From: Prochloron sp. SulCav_FS08_3_32_3330
GTDB taxonomy: Bacteria > Cyanobacteriota > Cyanobacteriia > Cyanobacteriales > DYNF01
Reading direction: 5' to 3'
NCBI GenBank assembly: GCA_020721205.1
Contig: DYNF01000027.1
Coordinates: 1-42,389, forward strand
Length of the DNA stretch: 42,389 bases
Numbering within the stretch: the stretch's first letter is position 1; each line of letters opens with the position of its first letter. Positions 852-36,405 of this stretch are shown piece by piece. Below the pieces are notes generated by a model. It made no database searches. It was not told the DNA's origin and was given only the letters and a program-made list of their open reading frames with translations. A program made the translations under genes and the position numbers.

Positions 852-1427
852 ATGATTACTGCTATTAAAACCAATTATTTTACGCCTGAAGAATATTTAA
901 TTTTAGAAGAAAAAAACACGCTTAAACATGAATATATTAACGGAGAAATTTACGCTATGGCTGGAGCAAGTGATCGTCATGTAACTATTGCTGGAAATCT
1001 CTATATGTTATTAAGAAATCATCTGAGAGGATCGGGCTGTAGAGTGTATATTTCAGATATGAAATTAAAATTAGAAACTAAAAATTGTTTCTATTATCCT
1101 GATCTTTTAGTAACTTGTGAAAATGAAGATCAAGAAACTGCTAATTATAAAAAATATCCTAAATTAATTGTGGAAGTTTTATCTAATTCTACGGAAGCAT
1201 TCGATCGAGGAGATAAATTTTCTGATTATCAATCTTTAGAAACTTTAGAAGAATATGTGTTAATTAATAGCAAAAAGCAAAGAGTAGAATGTTTTAGAAG
1301 ACAAGAAAATCAACTTTGGATATTACAAACTTATACAGATCAAGATCAAAATTTTGAGTTAATTAGTGTTAATTTTACAGGTAAAATAGCGGATATTTAT
1401 GAAGATGTAGATTTTTTGGATGTTTAA
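852..1427 (+). CDS. Uma2 family endonuclease-like protein (copy 2)
   Basis: This 191-aa Uma2/DUF820 protein is the tandem partner of the gene at 162-746. Positions 922-1394 appear base-for-base identical to 244-716. Its N-terminus is three residues shorter (MITAIKTNYFTPEEY against MITAVKTETKTNYLSPEEY) and its C-terminus ends YEDVDFLDV instead of YEDVDFSV. The leader just before the ATG (GGAGAAAATTTAATATG) is also shared, so both have the same ribosome site. The catalytic PD...EVL...K residues are retained. Two intact identical nuclease cores argue for a very recent event. The biological role is unknown. Confidence 0.9.
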   Translation: MITAIKTNYFTPEEYLILEEKNTLKHEYINGEIYAMAGASDRHVTIAGNLYMLLRNHLRGSGCRVYISDMKLKLETKNCFYYPDLLVTCENEDQETANYKKYPKLIVEVLSNSTEAFDRGDKFSDYQSLETLEEYVLINSKKQRVECFRRQENQLWILQTYTDQDQNFELISVNFTGKIADIYEDVDFLDV

Positions 1428-1449
1428 AAGTAGTTTTTATTCTTTTTTC

Positions 1450-1496
1450 CAACGGGTTAAAACCCGTTGCCTCTTTAACTTTTGGGGATTTTCACA
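1450..1496. repeat. Two-hairpin repeat downstream of the Uma2 pair
   Basis: The perfect palindrome CAACGGGTTAAAACCCGTTG (1450-1469) is followed by a pyrimidine-rich linker and a second hairpin built from GGGGATT and AATCCCC (about 1482-1498). The same two-part order (CAACGGG palindrome, TCTTTTTAAC-like linker, GGGGATT hairpin) recurs at 36312-36405 behind the porin gene. It may act as a transcription terminator for the Uma2 genes, though no clear T-run follows. Confidence 0.6.
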
Positions 1497-1565
1497 ATCC
1501 CCGACTATTGCAATCAATTTATCATTATTATATTATTGATCATCATTATTTAATTATTTAACTTT

Positions 1566-3092
1566 ATGCTAGAAAACTTCAACTTTCAAAAATTACAAAA
1601 TGGCTCGGATATTCGGGGTGTTGCGATGGAAGGAATACCTAATGAAACTGTTAATTTAACTCCCGAAATTATCGCTAAAATTGCTCAAGGTTTTGTACTT
1701 TGGTTAACAGAAAAACTTGAAAAAACTACATCTGATTTAACAATTTCTGTGGGTAGAGATAGCCGTTTATCGGGGGAAATATTAAGTCAATCTGTTACTA
1801 CTGCTATAACAGAAATGGGCTGTGATGTTTATGATTTTAAAATTGCTTCCACTCCCGCTATGTTTATGAGTACAATTACCGAAAATTTTAACTGTGATGG
1901 GGCAATTATGTTAACAGCAAGTCATTTACCTTTTAATCGTAATGGCTTAAAATTTTTTACTAATCAAGGGGGTTTAAATAAACCTGATATTACCGCAATT
2001 TTAAATTTTGCCCAAGCTAATAATTTTACTTATAGTAACATTAAAGGTACAATTTCTGAACATAATTTTATCTCCATTTATGCTCAAGGTTTAGTTAAGA
2101 AAATTCGAGAGGGTGTCAATCATCCTAATCATTATGAGCAACCTTTAAAGGGTTTAAAAATTATTGTGGATGCGGGAAATGGGGCAGGAGGATTTTATGC
2201 AGATCAGGTATTAAAACCCCTTGGTGCTGATACTAATGGCAGTCAATTTTTAGAGCCTGATGGCACATTTCCTAATCATATTCCTAACCCTGAAAATAAA
2301 GAAGCGATGGCTTCAATTTCTTCAGCAGTTATTAAGAATAAAGCTGATTTTGGTATTATTTTCGATACTGATGTGGATCGAGGGGCGGCGGTAGATAGTC
2401 AAGGTAAAGAATTAAATCGTAATCGTTTAATTGCTTTAATTTCTGCTATTGTATTACAAGAACATCCTAATTCAATTATTGTTACTGATTCCATAACTTC
2501 CGATGGTTTAACTAATTTTATTGAAATAGAATTACAAGGTATTCATCACCGTTTTAAAAGGGGTTATAAAAATGTAATTAATGAGGCGATTCGTTTAAAT
2601 AATGAAGGGCAAGAATCATGGTTGGCGATCGAAACTTCTGGGCATGGGGCAATGAAAGAAAATTATTTTCTTGATGATGGGGCTTATTTAATTACTAAAT
2701 TATTAATTGAATTAGCAAAATTAAAACAAGAAAATAAATCTTTAACGGATTTAATTATTAATTTACAAGAGCCTGAAGAAAGTGAGGAATTTCGCTTAAA
2801 TATTCAGATTGAAGAATTTAAAGAATATGGTAATCAAGTAATTGAAAAATTAACTCAATTTGCTTCTTCTAAATTTGATTGGAAAATTATTCCTAATAAT
2901 TATGAAGGGATCCGAGTTTCCTGCACTTCTGAGGATGAAAAAGGTTGGTTTTTATTACGTTTATCTCTCCATGATCCGGTAATTCCTTTAAATATTGAAT
3001 CTAATGTAAAAGGAGGAGTAAAGAAAATTTCTGACCGACTTTTAAGCTTTTTTCAAGATTTTGAAAATCTGGATCTTTCCCCTTTTAATTAA
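1566..3092 (+). CDS. Phosphomannomutase/phosphoglucomutase family protein
   Basis: This 508-aa alpha-D-phosphohexomutase interconverts hexose 1- and 6-phosphates through a phosphoserine. The active-site serine loop TASH lies at 117-120 (Ser119), the metal-binding loop DTDVDR at 267-272 and the sugar-binding ETSGH at 356-360, in the normal order for the four-domain family; length is also normal. Substrate preference (mannose or glucose phosphate) cannot be read from the sequence. A GDP-mannose pyrophosphorylase-like gene at 13893-15065 in the same window would use mannose 1-phosphate, which is compatible with a phosphomannomutase role. No convincing Shine-Dalgarno precedes the ATG. A long hairpin separates it from the J-like gene downstream. 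Confidence 0.88.
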   Translation: MLENFNFQKLQNGSDIRGVAMEGIPNETVNLTPEIIAKIAQGFVLWLTEKLEKTTSDLTISVGRDSRLSGEILSQSVTTAITEMGCDVYDFKIASTPAMFMSTITENFNCDGAIMLTASHLPFNRNGLKFFTNQGGLNKPDITAILNFAQANNFTYSNIKGTISEHNFISIYAQGLVKKIREGVNHPNHYEQPLKGLKIIVDAGNGAGGFYADQVLKPLGADTNGSQFLEPDGTFPNHIPNPENKEAMASISSAVIKNKADFGIIFDTDVDRGAAVDSQGKELNRNRLIALISAIVLQEHPNSIIVTDSITSDGLTNFIEIELQGIHHRFKRGYKNVINEAIRLNNEGQESWLAIETSGHGAMKENYFLDDGAYLITKLLIELAKLKQENKSLTDLIINLQEPEESEEFRLNIQIEEFKEYGNQVIEKLTQFASSKFDWKIIPNNYEGIRVSCTSEDEKGWFLLRLSLHDPVIPLNIESNVKGGVKKISDRLLSFFQDFENLDLSPFN

Positions 3093-3106
3093 TTAATATT
3101 AATCAA

Positions 3107-3161
3107 GGTTTGTTGTTGCGCTTCAGCACCACTTTTTAGCGCTAAAGTGCAACAACAAACC
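3107..3161. repeat. Long imperfect hairpin, GGTTTGTTGTTGC family
   Basis: GGTTTGTTGTTGC at 3107-3119 pairs perfectly with GCAACAACAAACC at 3149-3161. The inner arms (CTTCAGC.../...GCTAAAG) pair imperfectly. Half-copies of the same motif occur at 16145-16225 and 26639-26660, so this is a dispersed repeat. It lies between the phosphohexomutase and J-like genes and could attenuate read-through. Confidence 0.7.
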
Positions 3162-3177
3162 TGAATTTTAAATTATT

Positions 3178-3540
3178 ATGTTTTATCCTAATCCTTATGA
3201 TGTTTTAGAAGTATCAAAAGCGGCTTCTAAAACTGAAATTAATCAGGCTTTTAAACGAGCAATGAAAAAGAAAAAATATCCCATTGCTGTTATTTCTAAG
3301 GCTCATAAATGTTTATTAAATCCTCAACAGCGTTTAATCGCTGATTATTTACAGCCCTATTTACCCACTATTCAACGCTTTAAACGTCAAGATTTATCAG
3401 AATTAGAAAAACCTGAGCATAGTTTAGAAATTTTACCCGAATTTGATCAATTAGATCAATTAATTGCTATGGCTAAAACTATTTCTGAAGATGATAAAAT
3501 TTTAGCTAAAATTCGTTTTAATCACAGTAAAAATAACTAA
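3178..3540 (+). CDS. Degenerate J-domain-like protein
   Basis: The N-terminal 60 residues of this 120-aa protein follow the J-domain pattern: NPYDVLEVSKAASKTEINQAF (helix I and start of helix II), then a basic helix, then KAHKCLLNPQQRLIADYL (helix III and the usual 'DPxxRxxYD' end). The HPD loop that stimulates Hsp70 ATPase is absent: the basic run KKKKYPIAVISK goes straight into helix III. The last 50 residues have no recognisable fold. The gene stops 3 bp before a GrpE-like gene, so the two are almost certainly cotranscribed. A J-like protein without HPD cannot be a standard Hsp40; an adaptor or regulatory role is inference. Confidence 0.7.
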   Translation: MFYPNPYDVLEVSKAASKTEINQAFKRAMKKKKYPIAVISKAHKCLLNPQQRLIADYLQPYLPTIQRFKRQDLSELEKPEHSLEILPEFDQLDQLIAMAKTISEDDKILAKIRFNHSKNN

Positions 3541-10384: not shown

Positions 10385-10452
10385 CTAATATTTAAAACAT
10401 TTAACCTGCGTAGGCAGGTTTTGTTTATGTAGCAACGGGTTTAAACCCGTTG
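10293..10452. repeat. Four-hairpin dispersed element, copy A
   Basis: The element begins GGGCGTTTTCATTC plus a T-run. It has hairpins at 10316-10335 (CAACAGATTAAAATCTGTTG), about 10351-10366 (CGGG/CCCGGG region), 10403-10420 (AACCTGC/GCAGGTT) and 10433-10452 (CAACGGGTTTAAACCCGTTG), with the AT-rich core TTATGATTAAATATTAACTAATATT between the second and third. Compared with copies B and C, bases in the first and third stems differ on both arms so that pairing is kept. The right terminal repeat seen in copy B is missing. It interrupts the ParD-like reading frame. Confidence 0.85.
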
Positions 10453-19957: not shown

Positions 19958-22294
19958 ATGAAGATTAACAAATTAAAACGCTTACATTTTAAAATTACTG
20001 GTATAGTGCAAGGGGTTGGTTTCCGTCCTTTTGTCTATCGGATTGCGACGGAATTAAACTTAGTTGGTTGGGTAAATAATACCGCCGAAGGTGTATTAAT
20101 TGAGTTAGAAGGTACACCCGAAAAATTACAAATTTTTCAGCAAAAATTAAATCAAAAAAAACCAAAATTAGCTCAAATTTTCAAGATTTACATAACAGAA
20201 TTAACTCCTTTTGGTTATACAGAATTTACAATTATTCATAGTACAAAAGGCGAAAAAACTGCGATTATTTTACCCGAAATTGCTCCTTGTCAAGACTGTT
20301 TAGAAGAAATTTTTAACCCTTTAAATCGTCGTTTTCGTTATCCTTTTACAAATTGTACTAATTGCGGACCTCGTTATTCAATTATTGAGAGTTTACCCTA
20401 CGATCGAGAAAATACGACTATGAGAGGCTTTATTATGTGTCCTCAATGTCAGAGCGAATATACAAATCCTCTTAATCGTCGTTTTCATGCTCAACCTAAC
20501 GCCTGTCCTATTTGTGGACCTCATTTAGAGTTATGGGATAGACAAGGAGAGATTTTAGCAAGTCAGGATCAAGCTTTATTAGAGACAGCAACAGCTATTA
20601 AAGAGGGTAAAATTTTAGCAATCAAAGGATTAGGAGGCTTTCATTTAGTCGTAGATGCGAGAAATAAAATAGCGGTTAAACTCTTACGAGAGAGGAAACA
20701 ACGCCCAGATAAACCCTTTGCTTTGATGTATCCATCCTTAGAATTAATTGAAAATGATTGTAAAATTTCCGAAATTGAAAGGAAATTATTAACCTCTGTT
20801 GAAGCTCCCATTGTGTTATTAAAAGCCAAAAATAAGCTTAATATTTCCGATAATATATCTCCAAATAATCCCTATTTAGGAATAATGTTACCTTATACAC
20901 CTCTACATCATTTATTAATGAAAGAGTTAAATTTTCCCATTGTGGCGACCAGTGGTAATCTGGCTGATGAGCCTATTTGTATTGAAGAAAGAGAAGCATT
21001 ACAAAGATTACAAGGAATTGCCGATTTATTTTTAACTCATAATCGTCCGATTATGCGTCCCATAGATGACTCAATTGTCAGGGAGATTATGGGTAGGAAA
21101 ATGATTTTACGTCGTGCCAGAGGCTACGCACCCCTCCCGATTTTAGTTAATTTAAACCACAAAAATAAGGATAAAACTCATAATTATTTAGCGTTAGGCG
21201 GTCACTTAAAAAATACAATTGCTCTGTCAATTCAAGAACAAATATTTATTAGTCAACATATAGGTGATCTTTCAAATCAACAAGCTTTTGAGTCTTTTCA
21301 AAATACAATTGCCTCTTTAATAAATCTTTATGAATTAAAACCAGAGGAATTTATTTGTGATTTACATTCTGATTATATTTCTAGTCAATATGCTCAAGCA
21401 TTAACAAAAAATCCAATTAAAATACAGCATCATTATGCTCATATTTTAGCCTGTTTAGCAGATAATAATATTTTACATAAAAATGTCTTAGGAGTAGCGT
21501 GGGATGGCACAGGCTACGGCTTAGATGGCACAATTTGGGGCGGAGAATTTCTGAAGGTTATACCCTCACAAACATCGAACTTTCAAAGAGTAGCCTATTT
21601 TGAGCCTTTTTCGTTAGTGGGAGGGGATAAAGCGGTGAAAGAGCCAAGAAGAAGTGCTTTAGGATTATTATATAAAATATTTGGACAAGATATTTTTAAG
21701 AAAAATCATACTTATTATTATTTATTAAATCAATTATTTACAGAACAAGAATTATTAATTTTTTCAAAGATGTTAACTCAAAAATTAAATTGTCCTTTAA
21801 CATCAAGTGTAGGGAGATTATTTGATGGAGTTTCCGCTTTATTAAATCTCTATTCAAAAGTTAGTTTTGAAGGTCAAGGGGCAATGGATTTAGAATTTAG
21901 ATTAGACTCTAATCTAACAGATAGTTATAATTTTAATATTGCTTATTTACCTAATCAAAAAGACACTAAATTTTTAAAGATTTCTTTTATTTTAGTAATT
22001 GAATGGCAATCTATCATAGAAGAAATATTACAAGATTTGCAAAATAATCAACCTATCTCTAAAATTTCAGCAAAATTTCATAATACTTTAACAGAAATTA
22101 TTGTTAAAATTGCCAAGAAAATTAAGATTAATTCTATTATTTTAACCGGAGGATGTTTTCAGAATAAATATTTATTAGAACAGGCTATAATTAAATTAAG
22201 AAATGCTAATTTTACTCCCTATTGGCATCAAAATATACCTCCTAATGATGGAGGTATTTCCGTTGGTCAAATTATTAGTCAATTAATTAATTAG
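19958..22294 (+). CDS. hypF: Carbamoyltransferase HypF, [NiFe] hydrogenase maturation
   Basis: This 778-aa protein has the full HypF order: N-terminal acylphosphatase domain (GIVQGVGFRPFVYR, Arg23), a double zinc finger with four CxxC pairs (Cys111/114, 133/136, 161/164, 183/186), a YrdC-like domain (IKGLGGFHLVVDA... about 220-400), and a Kae1-like C-terminal domain with HHYAHILACL, GVAWDGTGYGLDGTIWGGEF and the final LTGGCFQN. HypF makes carbamoyl-AMP and moves carbamoyl to HypE, the source of the CN ligands of the Ni-Fe centre. It serves the HoxH subunit encoded at 34138. hypC follows 2 kb later after an inserted toxin-antitoxin island; hypA, B, D and E are not in the window. Confidence 0.96.
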   Translation: MKINKLKRLHFKITGIVQGVGFRPFVYRIATELNLVGWVNNTAEGVLIELEGTPEKLQIFQQKLNQKKPKLAQIFKIYITELTPFGYTEFTIIHSTKGEKTAIILPEIAPCQDCLEEIFNPLNRRFRYPFTNCTNCGPRYSIIESLPYDRENTTMRGFIMCPQCQSEYTNPLNRRFHAQPNACPICGPHLELWDRQGEILASQDQALLETATAIKEGKILAIKGLGGFHLVVDARNKIAVKLLRERKQRPDKPFALMYPSLELIENDCKISEIERKLLTSVEAPIVLLKAKNKLNISDNISPNNPYLGIMLPYTPLHHLLMKELNFPIVATSGNLADEPICIEEREALQRLQGIADLFLTHNRPIMRPIDDSIVREIMGRKMILRRARGYAPLPILVNLNHKNKDKTHNYLALGGHLKNTIALSIQEQIFISQHIGDLSNQQAFESFQNTIASLINLYELKPEEFICDLHSDYISSQYAQALTKNPIKIQHHYAHILACLADNNILHKNVLGVAWDGTGYGLDGTIWGGEFLKVIPSQTSNFQRVAYFEPFSLVGGDKAVKEPRRSALGLLYKIFGQDIFKKNHTYYYLLNQLFTEQELLIFSKMLTQKLNCPLTSSVGRLFDGVSALLNLYSKVSFEGQGAMDLEFRLDSNLTDSYNFNIAYLPNQKDTKFLKISFILVIEWQSIIEEILQDLQNNQPISKISAKFHNTLTEIIVKIAKKIKINSIILTGGCFQNKYLLEQAIIKLRNANFTPYWHQNIPPNDGGISVGQIISQLIN

Positions 22295-22423: not shown

Positions 22424-22588
22424 ATGACTCAAGCTACTTATCAAATTAATCTTAACTTTGAACAAATTTTAACTTTAGTTAAACAACTCCCTTCTGCTGA
22501 GAAAATTCGTTTAAGTAAGGAATTAGAAAAAGAAACATTAAATAATCAACTAACTCAACTATTAGAATCATTTGCAACTGATTTTTAA
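22424..22588 (+). CDS. Orphan antitoxin-like small protein
   Basis: This 54-aa frame reads MTQATYQINLNFEQILTLVK, then QLPSAEKIRLSKELEKETLN and a short C-terminal helix. The 'I..LV.QLP..EK..L...LE.E' pattern is typical of small cyanobacterial antitoxins that precede PIN or RelE toxins. An AATAGGAAATC ribosome site is present. No toxin follows directly: the next gene is a different antitoxin. It is therefore an orphan, perhaps the remains of another module in the island between hypF and hypC. Confidence 0.6.
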   Translation: MTQATYQINLNFEQILTLVKQLPSAEKIRLSKELEKETLNNQLTQLLESFATDF

Positions 22589-22669: not shown

Positions 22670-22888
22670 ATGGTTAATGCACTTGAATTTAAAACGAAAA
22701 TTAAACAAGGTATGATCGAAATTCCGCCGGAATATCAACAAAATATTCAAGAAGGAAGTGACGTTAAAGTTATTATTCTTTCAGAAGAAAAAACCAAACA
22801 AAGATTAATGGATCAATTAGCAGAAAATCCTATTAGTGTTAAAGGGTGGAATAAATTAACAAGAGATGAAATTCACGAAAGAAAATAA
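22670..22888 (+). CDS. VapB-like antitoxin
   Basis: This 72-aa protein's start VNALEFKTKIKQGMIEIPPEYQQNIQEGSDVKVIIL resembles the swapped-hairpin (AbrB-like) or related short beta DNA-binding antitoxins. The tail NPISVKGWNKLTRDEIHERK is the toxin-binding part. The stop overlaps the start of the PIN-domain toxin by one base (TAATG), so the two are translationally coupled. The ribosome site GAGGTAAA is good. The C-terminal pattern 'NPI.V....(L/M).R.EI..R' is shared with the antitoxin at 23692, showing that the two modules are related. Confidence 0.8.
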   Translation: MVNALEFKTKIKQGMIEIPPEYQQNIQEGSDVKVIILSEEKTKQRLMDQLAENPISVKGWNKLTRDEIHERK

Positions 22889-23325
22889 TGAGTAACCAAA
22901 CAATATTTATTGATTCTAATATCTGGTTATATCGCTTTTTAGCAGATCAAGATCCAGAGCCAAAAGAAGATACAAGAAAACGCAAAATTGCTATTTCATT
23001 AACTAATCTTAAAACCATTATAATTAGTACACAAGTAATTAATGAAGTTTGCTCTGTTTTAAAAAGGAAAGTCAATTTTTCCGAAGCTGATATATCTCAA
23101 CTTATTGAAGAATTTGAAAAACAGTGTTTAGTCATAGAGATAACAACTTCTATGCTGAAAAAAGCATCTGAATTAAGAACTAATTATAATTTATCATTTT
23201 GGGATGGGTTAATTGTAGCTACTGCTTTATTTTCTGGTGCAAATATTCTTTATTCAGAAGATATGCAAGATGGTTTAATTGTAGATAATCAGTTAACTAT
23301 TATTAATCCGTTTAAAACTAATTAA
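22888..23325 (+). CDS. vapC: PIN-domain toxin (VapC-like ribonuclease)
   Basis: This 145-aa protein has the acidic PIN-domain residues in order: Asp9 (IFIDSNIWLYR), Glu53 (VINEVCSVL), Asp106 (SFWDGLIVATAL) and Glu124/Asp125 (LYSEDMQDG). VapC toxins are magnesium-dependent ribonucleases, often cutting tRNA or rRNA, held off by the partner antitoxin. The gene overlaps its antitoxin by one base and looks intact. About 2 bp behind its stop begins a 46-codon open remnant and then the first structured repeat. Confidence 0.88.
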   Translation: MSNQTIFIDSNIWLYRFLADQDPEPKEDTRKRKIAISLTNLKTIIISTQVINEVCSVLKRKVNFSEADISQLIEEFEKQCLVIEITTSMLKKASELRTNYNLSFWDGLIVATALFSGANILYSEDMQDGLIVDNQLTIINPFKTN

Positions 23326-23465: not shown

Positions 23466-23612
23466 AAAAAAACCGCATCGAAATGAATTTCGATGCTAAT
23501 AAAAATCGTTCAATAAATTGAACTAAGTTTAAACTTAATCTGATCAATTATTTAGTTATCTTTAGATAACGATTACTATTAGCTTTGTCAATTTATTGCA
23601 AAGCGGTTTTTT
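23466..23612 (+). repeat. Multi-branched structured repeat R1, terminator-like end
   Basis: AAAAACCG at the left pairs with CGGTTTTT at the right end. Nested inside are a hairpin CATCGAAAT/ATTTCGATG (23476-23495), a stem GCTAATA (23495-23501) with TATTAGC (23577-23583), a stem AATCG/CGATT, hairpins GTTCAA/TTGAAC (23508-23523), TAAGTTT/AAACTTA (23524-23537) and GTTATC/GATAAC (23555-23570), and CTTTG/CAAAG near the end. The right arm runs into TTTTTT. It lies behind the VapBC-like genes and before the next promoter. It could be a 3' terminator, a small RNA or a mobile palindromic element. Confidence 0.75.
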
Positions 23613-23614
23613 AT

Positions 23615-23622
23615 GATATAAT
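23615..23622 (+). promoter_or_regulatory. Candidate extended -10 element for the second antitoxin
   Basis: TGATATAAT ends at 23622, 70 bp before the antitoxin ATG. TTGCAA stands 15-16 bp upstream, inside the end of R1, as a weak -35. The same arrangement follows R2. Confidence 0.45.
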
Positions 23623-23691
23623 GATAATTATAGGATCAATAATAATATTATAGCCTTCTCAATTTCTGAAAAATATTGAGGTAAAATTAAT

Positions 23692-23895
23692 ATGAATAAA
23701 ACTCTTGATGTTACTAAATTAAAACCCGAACAAATTGCCCAATTACAAGATATTATTGAGGAATTTAAACTAAAAAATCAATTACAGTCTAATAAACCTG
23801 AATTTGATATGATTGAATACTTACTAGGAAATCCGATTAAAGTTGATAATTTAGAATTTATGAAACGAGAGGAAATTTATGACAGAAATCAGTAA
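23692..23895 (+). CDS. Orphan VapB-like antitoxin
   Basis: This 67-aa protein starts MNKTLDVTKLKPEQIAQLQD with a helical N-terminal half and ends LLGNPIKVDNLEFMKREEIYDRNQ, closely matching the tail of the VapB-like protein at 22670 (NPISVKGWNKLTRDEIHER). The ribosome site GAGG (ATTGAGGTAAAATTAATATG) is good and identical in kind to the first module. The overlapping downstream frame, which should encode the toxin, is reduced to 17 codons, so the antitoxin is alone. It may still bind and neutralise the intact toxin next door. Confidence 0.75.
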   Translation: MNKTLDVTKLKPEQIAQLQDIIEEFKLKNQLQSNKPEFDMIEYLLGNPIKVDNLEFMKREEIYDRNQ

Positions 23896-23932
23896 TAATT
23901 TTTGTTTTAAACTTATTAACTTTAATTATTAA
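23879..23932 (+). pseudogene. Toxin gene remnant behind the orphan antitoxin
   Basis: An ATG overlapping the end of the antitoxin frame opens MTEISNNFCFKLINFNY and stops at 23932. The start and position are those of a PIN toxin (compare MSNQTIFIDSN), and the next bases (ATTATTAATCCTTTTAAATTT) echo the end of the intact toxin gene (ATTATTAATCCGTTTAAAAC). An internal deletion removed almost the whole toxin. Confidence 0.6.
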
Positions 23933-23992
23933 TCCTTTTAAATTTACAAAATAATTGGTTAGAGGAGATTAATTAGGGATCAAAAGTCGGAG

Positions 23993-24135
23993 AAACCGCA
24001 TCGAAATTCATTTCGATGCTAATAAAAATCGTTCAATAAATTGAACTAAATTTAAACTTAATCTGATCAATTATTTAGTTATCTTTAGATAACGATTACT
24101 ATTAGCTTTGTCAATTTATTGCAAAGCGGTTTTTT
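23993..24135 (+). repeat. Multi-branched structured repeat R2
   Basis: This is the second copy of R1 (23466-23612), nearly identical over its length and for about 55 bp beyond. Differences seen: the two central bases of the first hairpin (GA in R1, TC here), which leave the stem intact, and one base in the TAAGTTTAAACTTA hairpin (TAAATTT...). The outer AAACCG/CGGTTT stem and the T-run are retained. It stands behind the decayed module and before hypC. Confidence 0.75.
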
Positions 24136-24136
24136 A

Positions 24137-24145
24137 TGATATAAT
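24137..24145 (+). promoter_or_regulatory. Duplicated extended -10 element upstream of hypC
   Basis: TGATATAAT ends at 24145, copied together with R2. After the duplication this promoter-like element faces hypC at 24278 and may now drive it. Confidence 0.35.
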
Positions 24146-24277
24146 GATAATTATAGGATCAATAGTATTATTATATCCTTCCCAATTTCTGAAAAAAATT
24201 CAGCATTAATACTTAAAATATTTAAGCAAAAATCAACTATAATTAAATTTAATTAAATTAATCAACGATAAAATATT

Positions 24278-24505
24278 ATGTGTTTAGCAATACCCGGTCA
24301 AATTATTAATATTACTGGTGAAGATTTAAACCGCATTGGTAAAGTGTCTTTTGGCGGGGCAGTAAAACAAGTTAATTTAGCTTATGTGCCAGAGGCAAAA
24401 GTGCATGATTATGTTATAGTTCATGTGGGTTTTGCTTTAAGTATTTTAGATGAAGAAGAAGCAACTAAAACTTTAAATTATTTGCAAGAAATGGAAATAA
24501 TTTAA
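24278..24505 (+). CDS. hypC: Hydrogenase maturation chaperone HypC
   Basis: This 75-aa protein begins MCLAIPGQI, the invariant HypC start in which Cys2 binds the iron centre and the hydrogenase large subunit. VKVHDYVIVHVGFA-like VHDYVIVHVGFALSILDEEEA closes the OB fold, as in the family. HypC works with HypD to carry Fe(CN)2CO to the large subunit (HoxH here). It is separated from hypF by the toxin-antitoxin island. No Shine-Dalgarno is obvious. Confidence 0.96.
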   Translation: MCLAIPGQIINITGEDLNRIGKVSFGGAVKQVNLAYVPEAKVHDYVIVHVGFALSILDEEEATKTLNYLQEMEII

Positions 24506-26439: not shown

Positions 26440-26647
26440 GGTGCTAAAGCAGGGCGTTTTCATTCTCGGGAGGCAACGGGTTAAAACCCGTTGCTACATA
26501 AGCAAAACCACTGCCGACCCAGGGCTTAATTTTTTAATATTAGTTAATATTTAATTAGAAAACCCGTAAAGACGGGTTTTGTTTGGGTAGCAACGGGTTT
26601 TAACCCGTTGTAAAAAAAAAGAATGAAAACGCCCTGGGTGCTAAAGC
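26440..26647. repeat. 11-bp direct repeats flanking copy B
   Basis: GGTGCTAAAGC stands at 26440-26450 and again at 26637-26647, one base outside the right inverted repeat end. This is what a target-site duplication would look like; the target was a copy of the GTGCTAAAGCACAACAAC repeat. Confidence 0.6.
26451..26635. mobile_element. Four-hairpin dispersed element, copy B (complete)
   Basis: This 185-bp element has perfect 16-bp terminal inverted repeats (AGGGCGTTTTCATTCT at 26451-26466, AGAATGAAAACGCCCT at 26620-26635). Inside are CAACGGGTTAAAACCCGTTG (26474-26493), a decayed second hairpin (CACTGCCGACCCAGGG region), an AT-rich core, AACCCGT/ACGGGTT (about 26560-26577) and CAACGGGTTTTAACCCGTTG (26591-26610). 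No protein is encoded, so it would be a non-autonomous, MITE-like element. Confidence 0.75.
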
Positions 26648-35586: not shown

Positions 35587-35745
35587 AGGGTGTTTTCATT
35601 CTTTTTTTTTACGACAGGTTAAAACCTGTCGCTACCCAAACAAAACCCGTCTTTACGGGTTTTATGATTAAATATTAACTAATATTAAAAAATTAAACCT
35701 GCGACGGCAGGTTTTGTTTATGTAGCAACGGGTTTTAACCCGTTG
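35587..35745. repeat. Four-hairpin dispersed element, copy C
   Basis: Begins AGGGTGTTTTCATTC plus a T-run. Hairpins: CGACAGGTTAAAACCTGTCG (35612-35631), AAAACCCGTCTTTACGGGTTTT (35642-35663, perfect), AACCTGC/GCAGGTT (35696-35713), CAACGGGTTTTAACCCGTTG (35726-35745). The core TTATGATTAAATATTAACTAATATT equals copy A. The right terminal inverted repeat is absent. It ends inside a truncated HEPN-like gene on the minus strand and follows hoxH on the plus strand. Confidence 0.85.
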
Positions 35746-35796
35746 CTACCTTCTTTCTTTGGCTTTTTCTAATAATTGTTGTTGTTCCTTAGTCAT
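35746..35796 (-). pseudogene. Truncated HEPN-domain toxin gene
   Basis: The frame MTKEQQQLLEKAKERR ends at a TAG created by the repeat element (copy C). Its ATG overlaps the stop of the MNT gene in ATGA, the usual coupling of MNT-HEPN pairs, and the residues match the start of typical HEPN partners (MT.EQ..LL.KA..S). Everything beyond codon 16 is missing, replaced by the repeat. Confidence 0.7.
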
Positions 35797-36143: not shown

Positions 36144-36311
36144 TGTTTAAATCTCCCTACATGAGTTTTAAAACTAATTGTTTTCATAAATTTAACCTCG
36201 AAAATATCTCATTATGATTTTCTTCTTTTGTTTGTGAAACATTCATTAACTAAATTACAGGATTATCTACTATTATTTTTAACATATTTTGATCACTTTT
36301 TGCTTATGTAG

Positions 36312-36405
36312 CAACGGGTTTAAACCCGTTGTCTTTTTAACTAAAAAGTCGGGGATTTCTCTTAAATCTGCCTAGTGACAGATCATGAGAAAATCCCCGA
36401 CTTTT
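36312..36405 (-). terminator. Strong hairpin terminator of the porin gene with CAACGGG palindrome
   Basis: On the minus strand, AAAAGTCGGGGATTTTCTC (36405-36387) pairs with GAGAAATCCCCGACTTTTT (36361-36343), with one bulge. An inner stem ATCTG/CAGAT lies in the loop, and the right arm ends in a T-run. It lies about 30 bp behind the porin stop. The palindrome CAACGGGTTTAAACCCGTTG follows at 36312-36331, as in the repeat at 1450. Confidence 0.75.

Follow-up and report, generated by a model that had tools for sequence, protein, structure and literature searches.

Double-hairpin DNA repeats of cyanobacteria and the class-1-like Y1 transposase genes that they flank

Introduction

What is the duplicated, multiply palindromic sequence found between hypF (19958–22294) and hypC (24278–24505) in the window, that is, the whole 42,389-nucleotide stretch of DNA analysed here? 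Its two copies, R1 (23467–23613) and R2 (23990–24135), neither assigned to a strand, lie within a small toxin–antitoxin array, and the first-pass annotation had proposed a small RNA behind VapBC-like modules, whether derived from a 3′ untranslated region or acting as an antitoxin RNA, or else a mobile palindrome. The last option is supported by 137 repeat units in this genome, by units in 121 of the 196 genomes of the order and by a cognate HUH transposase in relatives. R1 and R2 are very probably REPIN-like, non-autonomous single-stranded DNA (ssDNA) mobile elements, built of REPs that lack the usual GTAG and serve a clade-1 transposase of TnpA_Y1 subclass 1.2. Their units are members of a large family of double-hairpin DNA repeats, hereafter family 1, which is dispersed over the genomes of cyanobacteria and had not been labelled before.

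R1, R2 and their surroundings

R1 is a REPIN-like element made of two inverted 55-nt units with their 3′ ends facing. Unit a (plus strand, 23472–23526), the genome's top match to covariance model R1 (80.2 bits), contains hairpin 1 at 23475–23496 and hairpin 2 at 23508–23523. In unit b (minus strand, 23552–23607), hairpin 1 (23582–23604) carries a C/GA internal loop and hairpin 2 spans 23555–23570. R2, likewise REPIN-like, is a copy of R1 in which hairpin 1 of unit a is inverted in place; it comprises unit a at 23995–24049 (plus strand, 76.7 bits) and unit b at 24075–24130 (minus strand, 75.5 bits). The duplication noticed at first pass is genuine, with 96% identity over 211 nt at a spacing of 523 bp, the plus-strand segment 23470–23680 (the element and the TGATATAAT region) corresponding to 23993–24203. 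The proposed folding also stands: R1 and R2 contain five local hairpins as well as the outer pairings AAAACCG/CGGTTTT, TAATA/TATTA and ATCG/CGAT, and the minimum free energies of −39.5 (R1) and −39.8 kcal/mol (R2), against −18.6 and −18.8 kcal/mol for shuffled sequences, are far beyond chance (z −6.6 and −6.5), none of 200 shuffles matching the native fold. Folding is just as strong on the minus strand (z −6.3), so that the fold by itself is no pointer to RNA.

Other features read at the locus are not those of a repeat family. The promoter-like box TGATATAAT does stand directly after both R1 and R2, because the duplication spans this region; it occurs within 80 nt of merely 3 of the 66 unit clusters in this genome, R1 and R2 being among these three, and is therefore part of the local duplication and not of the repeat. 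The terminator-like end is weak, since a scan returns a single site of this kind, located in R1 on its minus strand. As for the T-run, GCGG followed by at least five T is found at 3 of 69 unit ends in the genome, which makes it no family feature.

The toxin–antitoxin array contains an antitoxin-like open reading frame (ORF; 22670–22888), an intact 145-aa PIN/VapC-like ORF (22888–23325; Pfam E 2e-13) and a second antitoxin-like ORF (23692–23895). A decayed toxin gene was claimed ahead of each copy, which is true of R2 only; R1 is preceded by the intact PIN/VapC-like ORF, and the ∼145 bp between this ORF and R1 resemble a gene fragment. The second antitoxin-like ORF is followed by a toxin remnant only. 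Both antitoxin-like ORFs (in the regions 22670–23325 and 23692–23990) have a common C-terminal pattern, NPIxV...RxEIxxR, and unlike N termini. A 54-aa ORF at 22424–22588, upstream of the VapBC pair, resembles the VapB15 antitoxin (NCBIfam NF047401, E 6.5e-18, below cut-off) and is a truncated antitoxin.

In-place inversion of a hairpin

The centre of hairpin 1 in unit a reads GA in R1 (23485–23486, plus strand) and TC in R2, while the stem is kept, as the first-pass annotation had noticed. The difference is real, but it does not consist of two random changes: the whole hairpin has been replaced, in place, by its exact reverse complement. Outside hairpin 1, the two ∼145-nt elements differ by a single base. 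The same flip distinguishes copies standing in tandem on contigs 11 and 174, as well as one further pair of loci, and among near-identical unit pairs, which are not independent of one another, eight differ by a flip and five otherwise. Such a flip would be the expected outcome for a hairpin that is transiently single-stranded or cruciform, and inversion may proceed via a single-strand or template-switch intermediate. A single-strand intermediate may have left its trace in these inversions between near-identical copies.

Architecture of the unit and its copies in the genome

A BLAST search with R1 against its own genome gives 68 matches, from which R1 was read as an inverted pair of the 55-nt unit CCGC-hairpin 1-GCTAATA-linker-hairpin 2-TAA. 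Its conserved unpaired letters are CCGC before hairpin 1, GCTAATA(GCNAAA) between the hairpins, the TNAA loop of hairpin 2 and the final TAA; in relatives, the consensus is CCCGCC-stem-AATNNATT-stem-GGCTAATAGCNAAA-GTCNNNTNAANNNGAC-TAA. A search with a covariance model (A1/R1) built from the unit alignment brings the count to 137 units in the 4.73-Mb genome, arranged singly, in tandem or as inverted pairs of either polarity (‘+-’ or ‘-+’). Like REPs, these are short palindromes in high copy number and intergenic position (62 of the 66 clusters examined), and R1, R2 and many other pairs are inverted doublets of the REPIN type. The GT[AG]G tag was sought at the four hairpin feet and found at none of them in 80 family 1 units.

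Stems conserved in shape and not in letters

Pairing is maintained while the paired letters change. Alignment A1, the earliest one of the units, was picked in part for pairing, and its covariation is biased accordingly; the unbiased test is provided by named genomes retrieved with a pattern that fixed the linker and a portion of hairpin 2 and left hairpin 1 outside the selection. In this set, 50 of the 59 distinct forms of hairpin 1 have at least seven of their eight outer pairs in Watson–Crick register, against 9% after swapping the 5′ arms among units, and hairpin 2 is perfectly paired at its free positions in ∼29 of 33 distinct sequences. In a pan-cyanobacterial alignment of 39 sequences, 97.8% of cells are paired and covariation reaches 0.775, compared with 0.188 after shuffling and at most 0.144 after sliding. 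Pair changes in the same alignment amount to 173 two-sided Watson–Crick cells against 3 one-sided G-U cells. The near absence of G-U steps, together with the equal folding of both strands, suggests DNA hairpins, and strong covariation is what is expected of a hairpin DNA element. As replication can correct imperfect palindromes, covariation alone is no proof of selection by a protein, and part of it could stem from such replication-driven correction.

A clade of HUH/Y1 transposases flanked by family 1 units

In a relative (G045, locus L112), a 153-aa ORF at 1627–2085 has units on both sides. It encodes a Y1/HUH transposase (Pfam PF01797 Y1_Tnp, E 3e-30; NCBIfam IS200/IS605 family transposase), the nearest solved structures being those of ISHp608 (IS608) TnpA (PDB 2a6m/2vhg, E 2e-12). 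Genes of this clade, called clade 1 (∼150 aa), occur in 40 of the 196 genomes of the order, mostly as one copy each. HUH, WQ and Y---Q--HH are present in all the clade-1 proteins compared; the signature Y---Q--HH is found in 35 of 35 and the class 2 signature Y---NP in none of the 35.

Scanning with the pan-cyanobacterial covariance model R2 reveals units at 29 of 30 clade-1 tnpA loci of a first set (153 matches in 98 kb, against 133 with the earlier model) and at 15 of 16 of a further set. As L333 and L389 are one and the same negative locus of G147, 44 of 45 distinct clade-1 loci are positive. The median distance from the gene to its closest unit is 78 bp in the 5′ direction and 39 bp in the 3′ direction, and 20 of 29 loci have units on both sides. 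Family 1 units are absent from all 20 loci scanned in a sister clade (clade 2, ∼35% identity) and from all 20 loci of the IS200/IS605 type, all taken from the same order and some from the same genomes as the clade-1 loci. Thus, as in REPtrons, the repeats specifically flank one type of HUH/Y1 gene (44/45 against 0/40 control Y1 loci). All 40 genomes with a clade-1 gene carry units; the hypergeometric P of 2e-10 ignores, and is inflated by, the shared ancestry of the genomes.

In G013, a genome with units like those of the window, the hairpins on either side of the clade-1 gene read CGTTCAATGAATTGAAC and differ by one letter from those of R1. Stems of tnpA-flanking units match those of dispersed units of the same genome in 3 of 7 genomes, a small sample, against 9–17% between genomes. 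In L383 (G173, 1183–3213), a transposase pseudogene with one in-frame TAA sits amid a long tandem array of units, which suggests amplification around a decaying gene. A plasmid search with the transposase returned IS200-like proteins only (best ∼30% identity).

The 209-contig assembly of the window's genome yielded no clade-1 transposase gene. Its sole two Y1 genes (L061 and L062), considered as partners, were rejected, being of the IS200/IS605 type by tree and having no units nearby. The copies in the window are accordingly orphans, or the gene lies in an assembly gap; we infer that it was once present in this genome.

A sister clade with its own two-hairpin family

Clade-2 loci are associated with a different repeat, family 2, consisting of a stem with the loop GNAG, a linker such as TTTGTTTGTGTAG and a second hairpin preceded by GTAG. 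Family 2 is found at 19 of 20 clade-2 loci, including 10 of 10 outside its definition set, and at only 3 of 45 clade-1 and none of 20 IS200 loci. Families and clades therefore show a double dissociation, family 1 going with clade 1 and family 2 with clade 2. In the tree, clade 1 (support 90/90), clade 2 (98/96) and the IS200/IS605 proteins separate; Y---Q--HH and WQ are common to both clades, whereas W[TS] is found in the IS200/IS605 proteins, which are devoid of Y---Q--HH. The genome studied here holds ∼253 copies of family 2. In the window, they are seen (AACCTGCGTAGGCAGGTT + TTGTTTATGTAG + CAACGGGTTTAAACCCGTTG) at 10402–10450, 26485–26620, 35690–35750 and 36308–36330.

Distribution and alternative readings

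Family 1 units are also matched in many named cyanobacteria. Two elements are shared by two species of one genus and absent in a third, at rearranged sites; two loci compared among three congeners gave no clean empty site with target. Units, including an inverted pair, also occur in two contigs titled ‘Chloroflexi bacterium’ from a metagenome-assembled genome, JAJRXB010000251.1 (L140, 7658–7790) and JAJRXB010000391.1 (L150, 3087–3141), as a result either of transfer beyond cyanobacteria or of mis-binning. Phage carriage was rejected, as none of 2.9 million viral contigs matches the pan-cyanobacterial pattern. A literature search by sequence string returned only noise. In L275 (G059, ∼1060–1200), a MITE-like insert with ends GACCTCTTGCAAAA/TTTTGCAAGAGGTC lies inside the repeat region; it is absent in L281 (G036) and is apparently a recent insertion.

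Might another transposase, of the DDE type, disperse the units as MITEs, with the HUH gene as a mere passenger or preferred target site? Units do exist in 81 of the 156 genomes devoid of a clade-1 gene, no such gene is seen in the window's genome, and certain copies are contained in larger inverted repeats beginning with TACAGCGGTTTT: in L278 (G059, 1123–1426) and L283 (G036, 1078–1381), they are nested in an element bounded by TACAGCGGTTTT...AAAACCGCTGTA, which may be a MITE in its own right with a TA target. However, the flanking is two-sided and clade-specific, and the sister clade has a different two-hairpin family of its own. Furthermore, no other gene family recurs beside the units, the neighbours at 80 named and other unit loci belonging to large generic families only, and REPs are known to persist after loss of their transposase (PMC3733652). 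Dispersal by a DDE enzyme is therefore improbable. Still less probable are bidirectional terminators or stabilisers of mRNA 3′ ends, kept by the host and found next to the transposase gene by chance. Known REPs affect mRNA ends (PMC3733652, PMC6006769), and convergent gene pairs around units outnumber divergent ones (16 against 6); the scarcity of T-runs and the single terminator-like site in the region argue against termination, and the exclusive flanking of one transposase clade is left unexplained.

The least credible reading, and a very improbable one, is a structured RNA (small RNA, 3′ UTR element or antitoxin RNA) associated with VapBC modules, for, despite the strong fold and covariation and the position of R1 and R2 in a toxin–antitoxin array, Rfam gave no credible match to the repeat at gathering or permissive thresholds, both strands fold alike, pair changes are two-sided and Watson–Crick with hardly any G-U intermediate, units stand singly, in tandem or inverted either way and also flank a transposase gene, and only 4 unit loci are within 1 kb of a PIN gene where 2.1 are expected (49 PIN matches in the genome, P 0.16). 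The proposed co-occurrence with VapBC genes is thus not observed. Against an RNA, the first-pass annotation would have counted database copies unlinked to toxin–antitoxin genes and devoid of covariation; unlinked copies there are, but their covariation is strong.

Proposed mechanism and significance

Dispersal by the flanking ssDNA transposase is the reading retained, and this enzyme probably spreads the family. Homology and genomic association suggest that the clade-1 protein recognises, cleaves and mobilises the units. Once the DNA of the region is in single-stranded form, the transposase would read the folded hairpins and their conserved unpaired feet and then nick, so that units are copied or moved to intergenic sites elsewhere. 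If shape is what is read, stem letters would be free to drift in compensated pairs and whole hairpins could be inverted. It is tempting to generalise, and we lean, with less assurance, towards viewing subclass 1.2 as a pan-cyanobacterial REP-type system that reads two-hairpin DNA mainly by shape, clade 1 using the untagged family 1 and clade 2 the family 2 with its GTAG linker, each strictly its own, with hairpins inverting in place during spread.

A transposase subclass described without a repeat partner would so acquire one, and hence a testable substrate, and REP systems would include class-1-type proteins besides the GTAG-tagged class 2. With a distinct two-hairpin family for each, the two clades constitute a natural specificity swap. 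The association also accounts for a large part of the hairpin repeats that lie unlabelled between the genes of cyanobacteria and are otherwise open to misreading as small RNAs, terminators or toxin-linked elements.

Comparison with known systems

Small dispersed repeats of cyanobacteria, the subject of work by Elhai et al. in 2008, are reportedly very short and mobile. Family 1 most resembles the REP/REPIN repeats and their TnpA_REP (RAYT) proteins, the ‘REPtrons’ of TnpA_Y1 class 2: short, intergenic, high-copy hairpins, single or in inverted pairs, flank a low-copy HUH/Y1 gene that is often lost while the repeats stay. A cognate gene in the genome itself, a REPtron feature that is not strictly defining, was not found for R1 and R2 in the 209-contig assembly, and REP genomes lacking the transposase gene are reported by Di Nocera et al. 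2013 (PMC3733652). Unlike in REPtrons, the unit has two hairpins and a conserved linker, its hairpin feet carry no GT[AG]G and the clade-1 protein is class-1-like (Y---Q--HH). Family 1 is thus a REP/REPIN-like system by behaviour that lacks both hallmarks of canonical GTAG-tagged REPs, the tag and the Y---NP signature of class 2.

Likeness to IS200/IS605 elements lies in a homologous transposase (PF01797) and subterminal hairpins; their proteins differ in signature and their loci are here free of such units. Tyrosine transposase genes flanked by repeats, some of them doubly palindromic, recall the TIRYT systems or ‘TIRtrons’ of other bacteria, as presented in the available text of Di Nocera et al. 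2013 (PMC3733652). The cyanobacterial families of that same text (GTAG-12/15/16) are GTAG-tagged, unlike family 1, which corresponds to none of those given there; family 2 may be one of them. Bertels and Rainey 2011 mention REPINs in Nostoc punctiforme, with no sequences in the text (PMC3116915).

The protein agrees with subclass 1.2 of TnpA_Y1 as described by Quentin et al. 2018, with the same signature, length and low copy number, in Cyanobacteria and Bacteroidetes (PMC6006769); by this description, the gene of the relatives fits (∼148 aa, HUH, WQ, Y---Q--HH, low copy, Cyanobacteria). The same authors list the subclass as ‘REP: no’, with terminal secondary structures generally absent, and their automatic REP search demanded a GT[AG]G tag (PMC6006769). 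Unlike the subclass as published, its members here are flanked by two-hairpin units at 44 of 45 clade-1 and 19 of 20 clade-2 loci.
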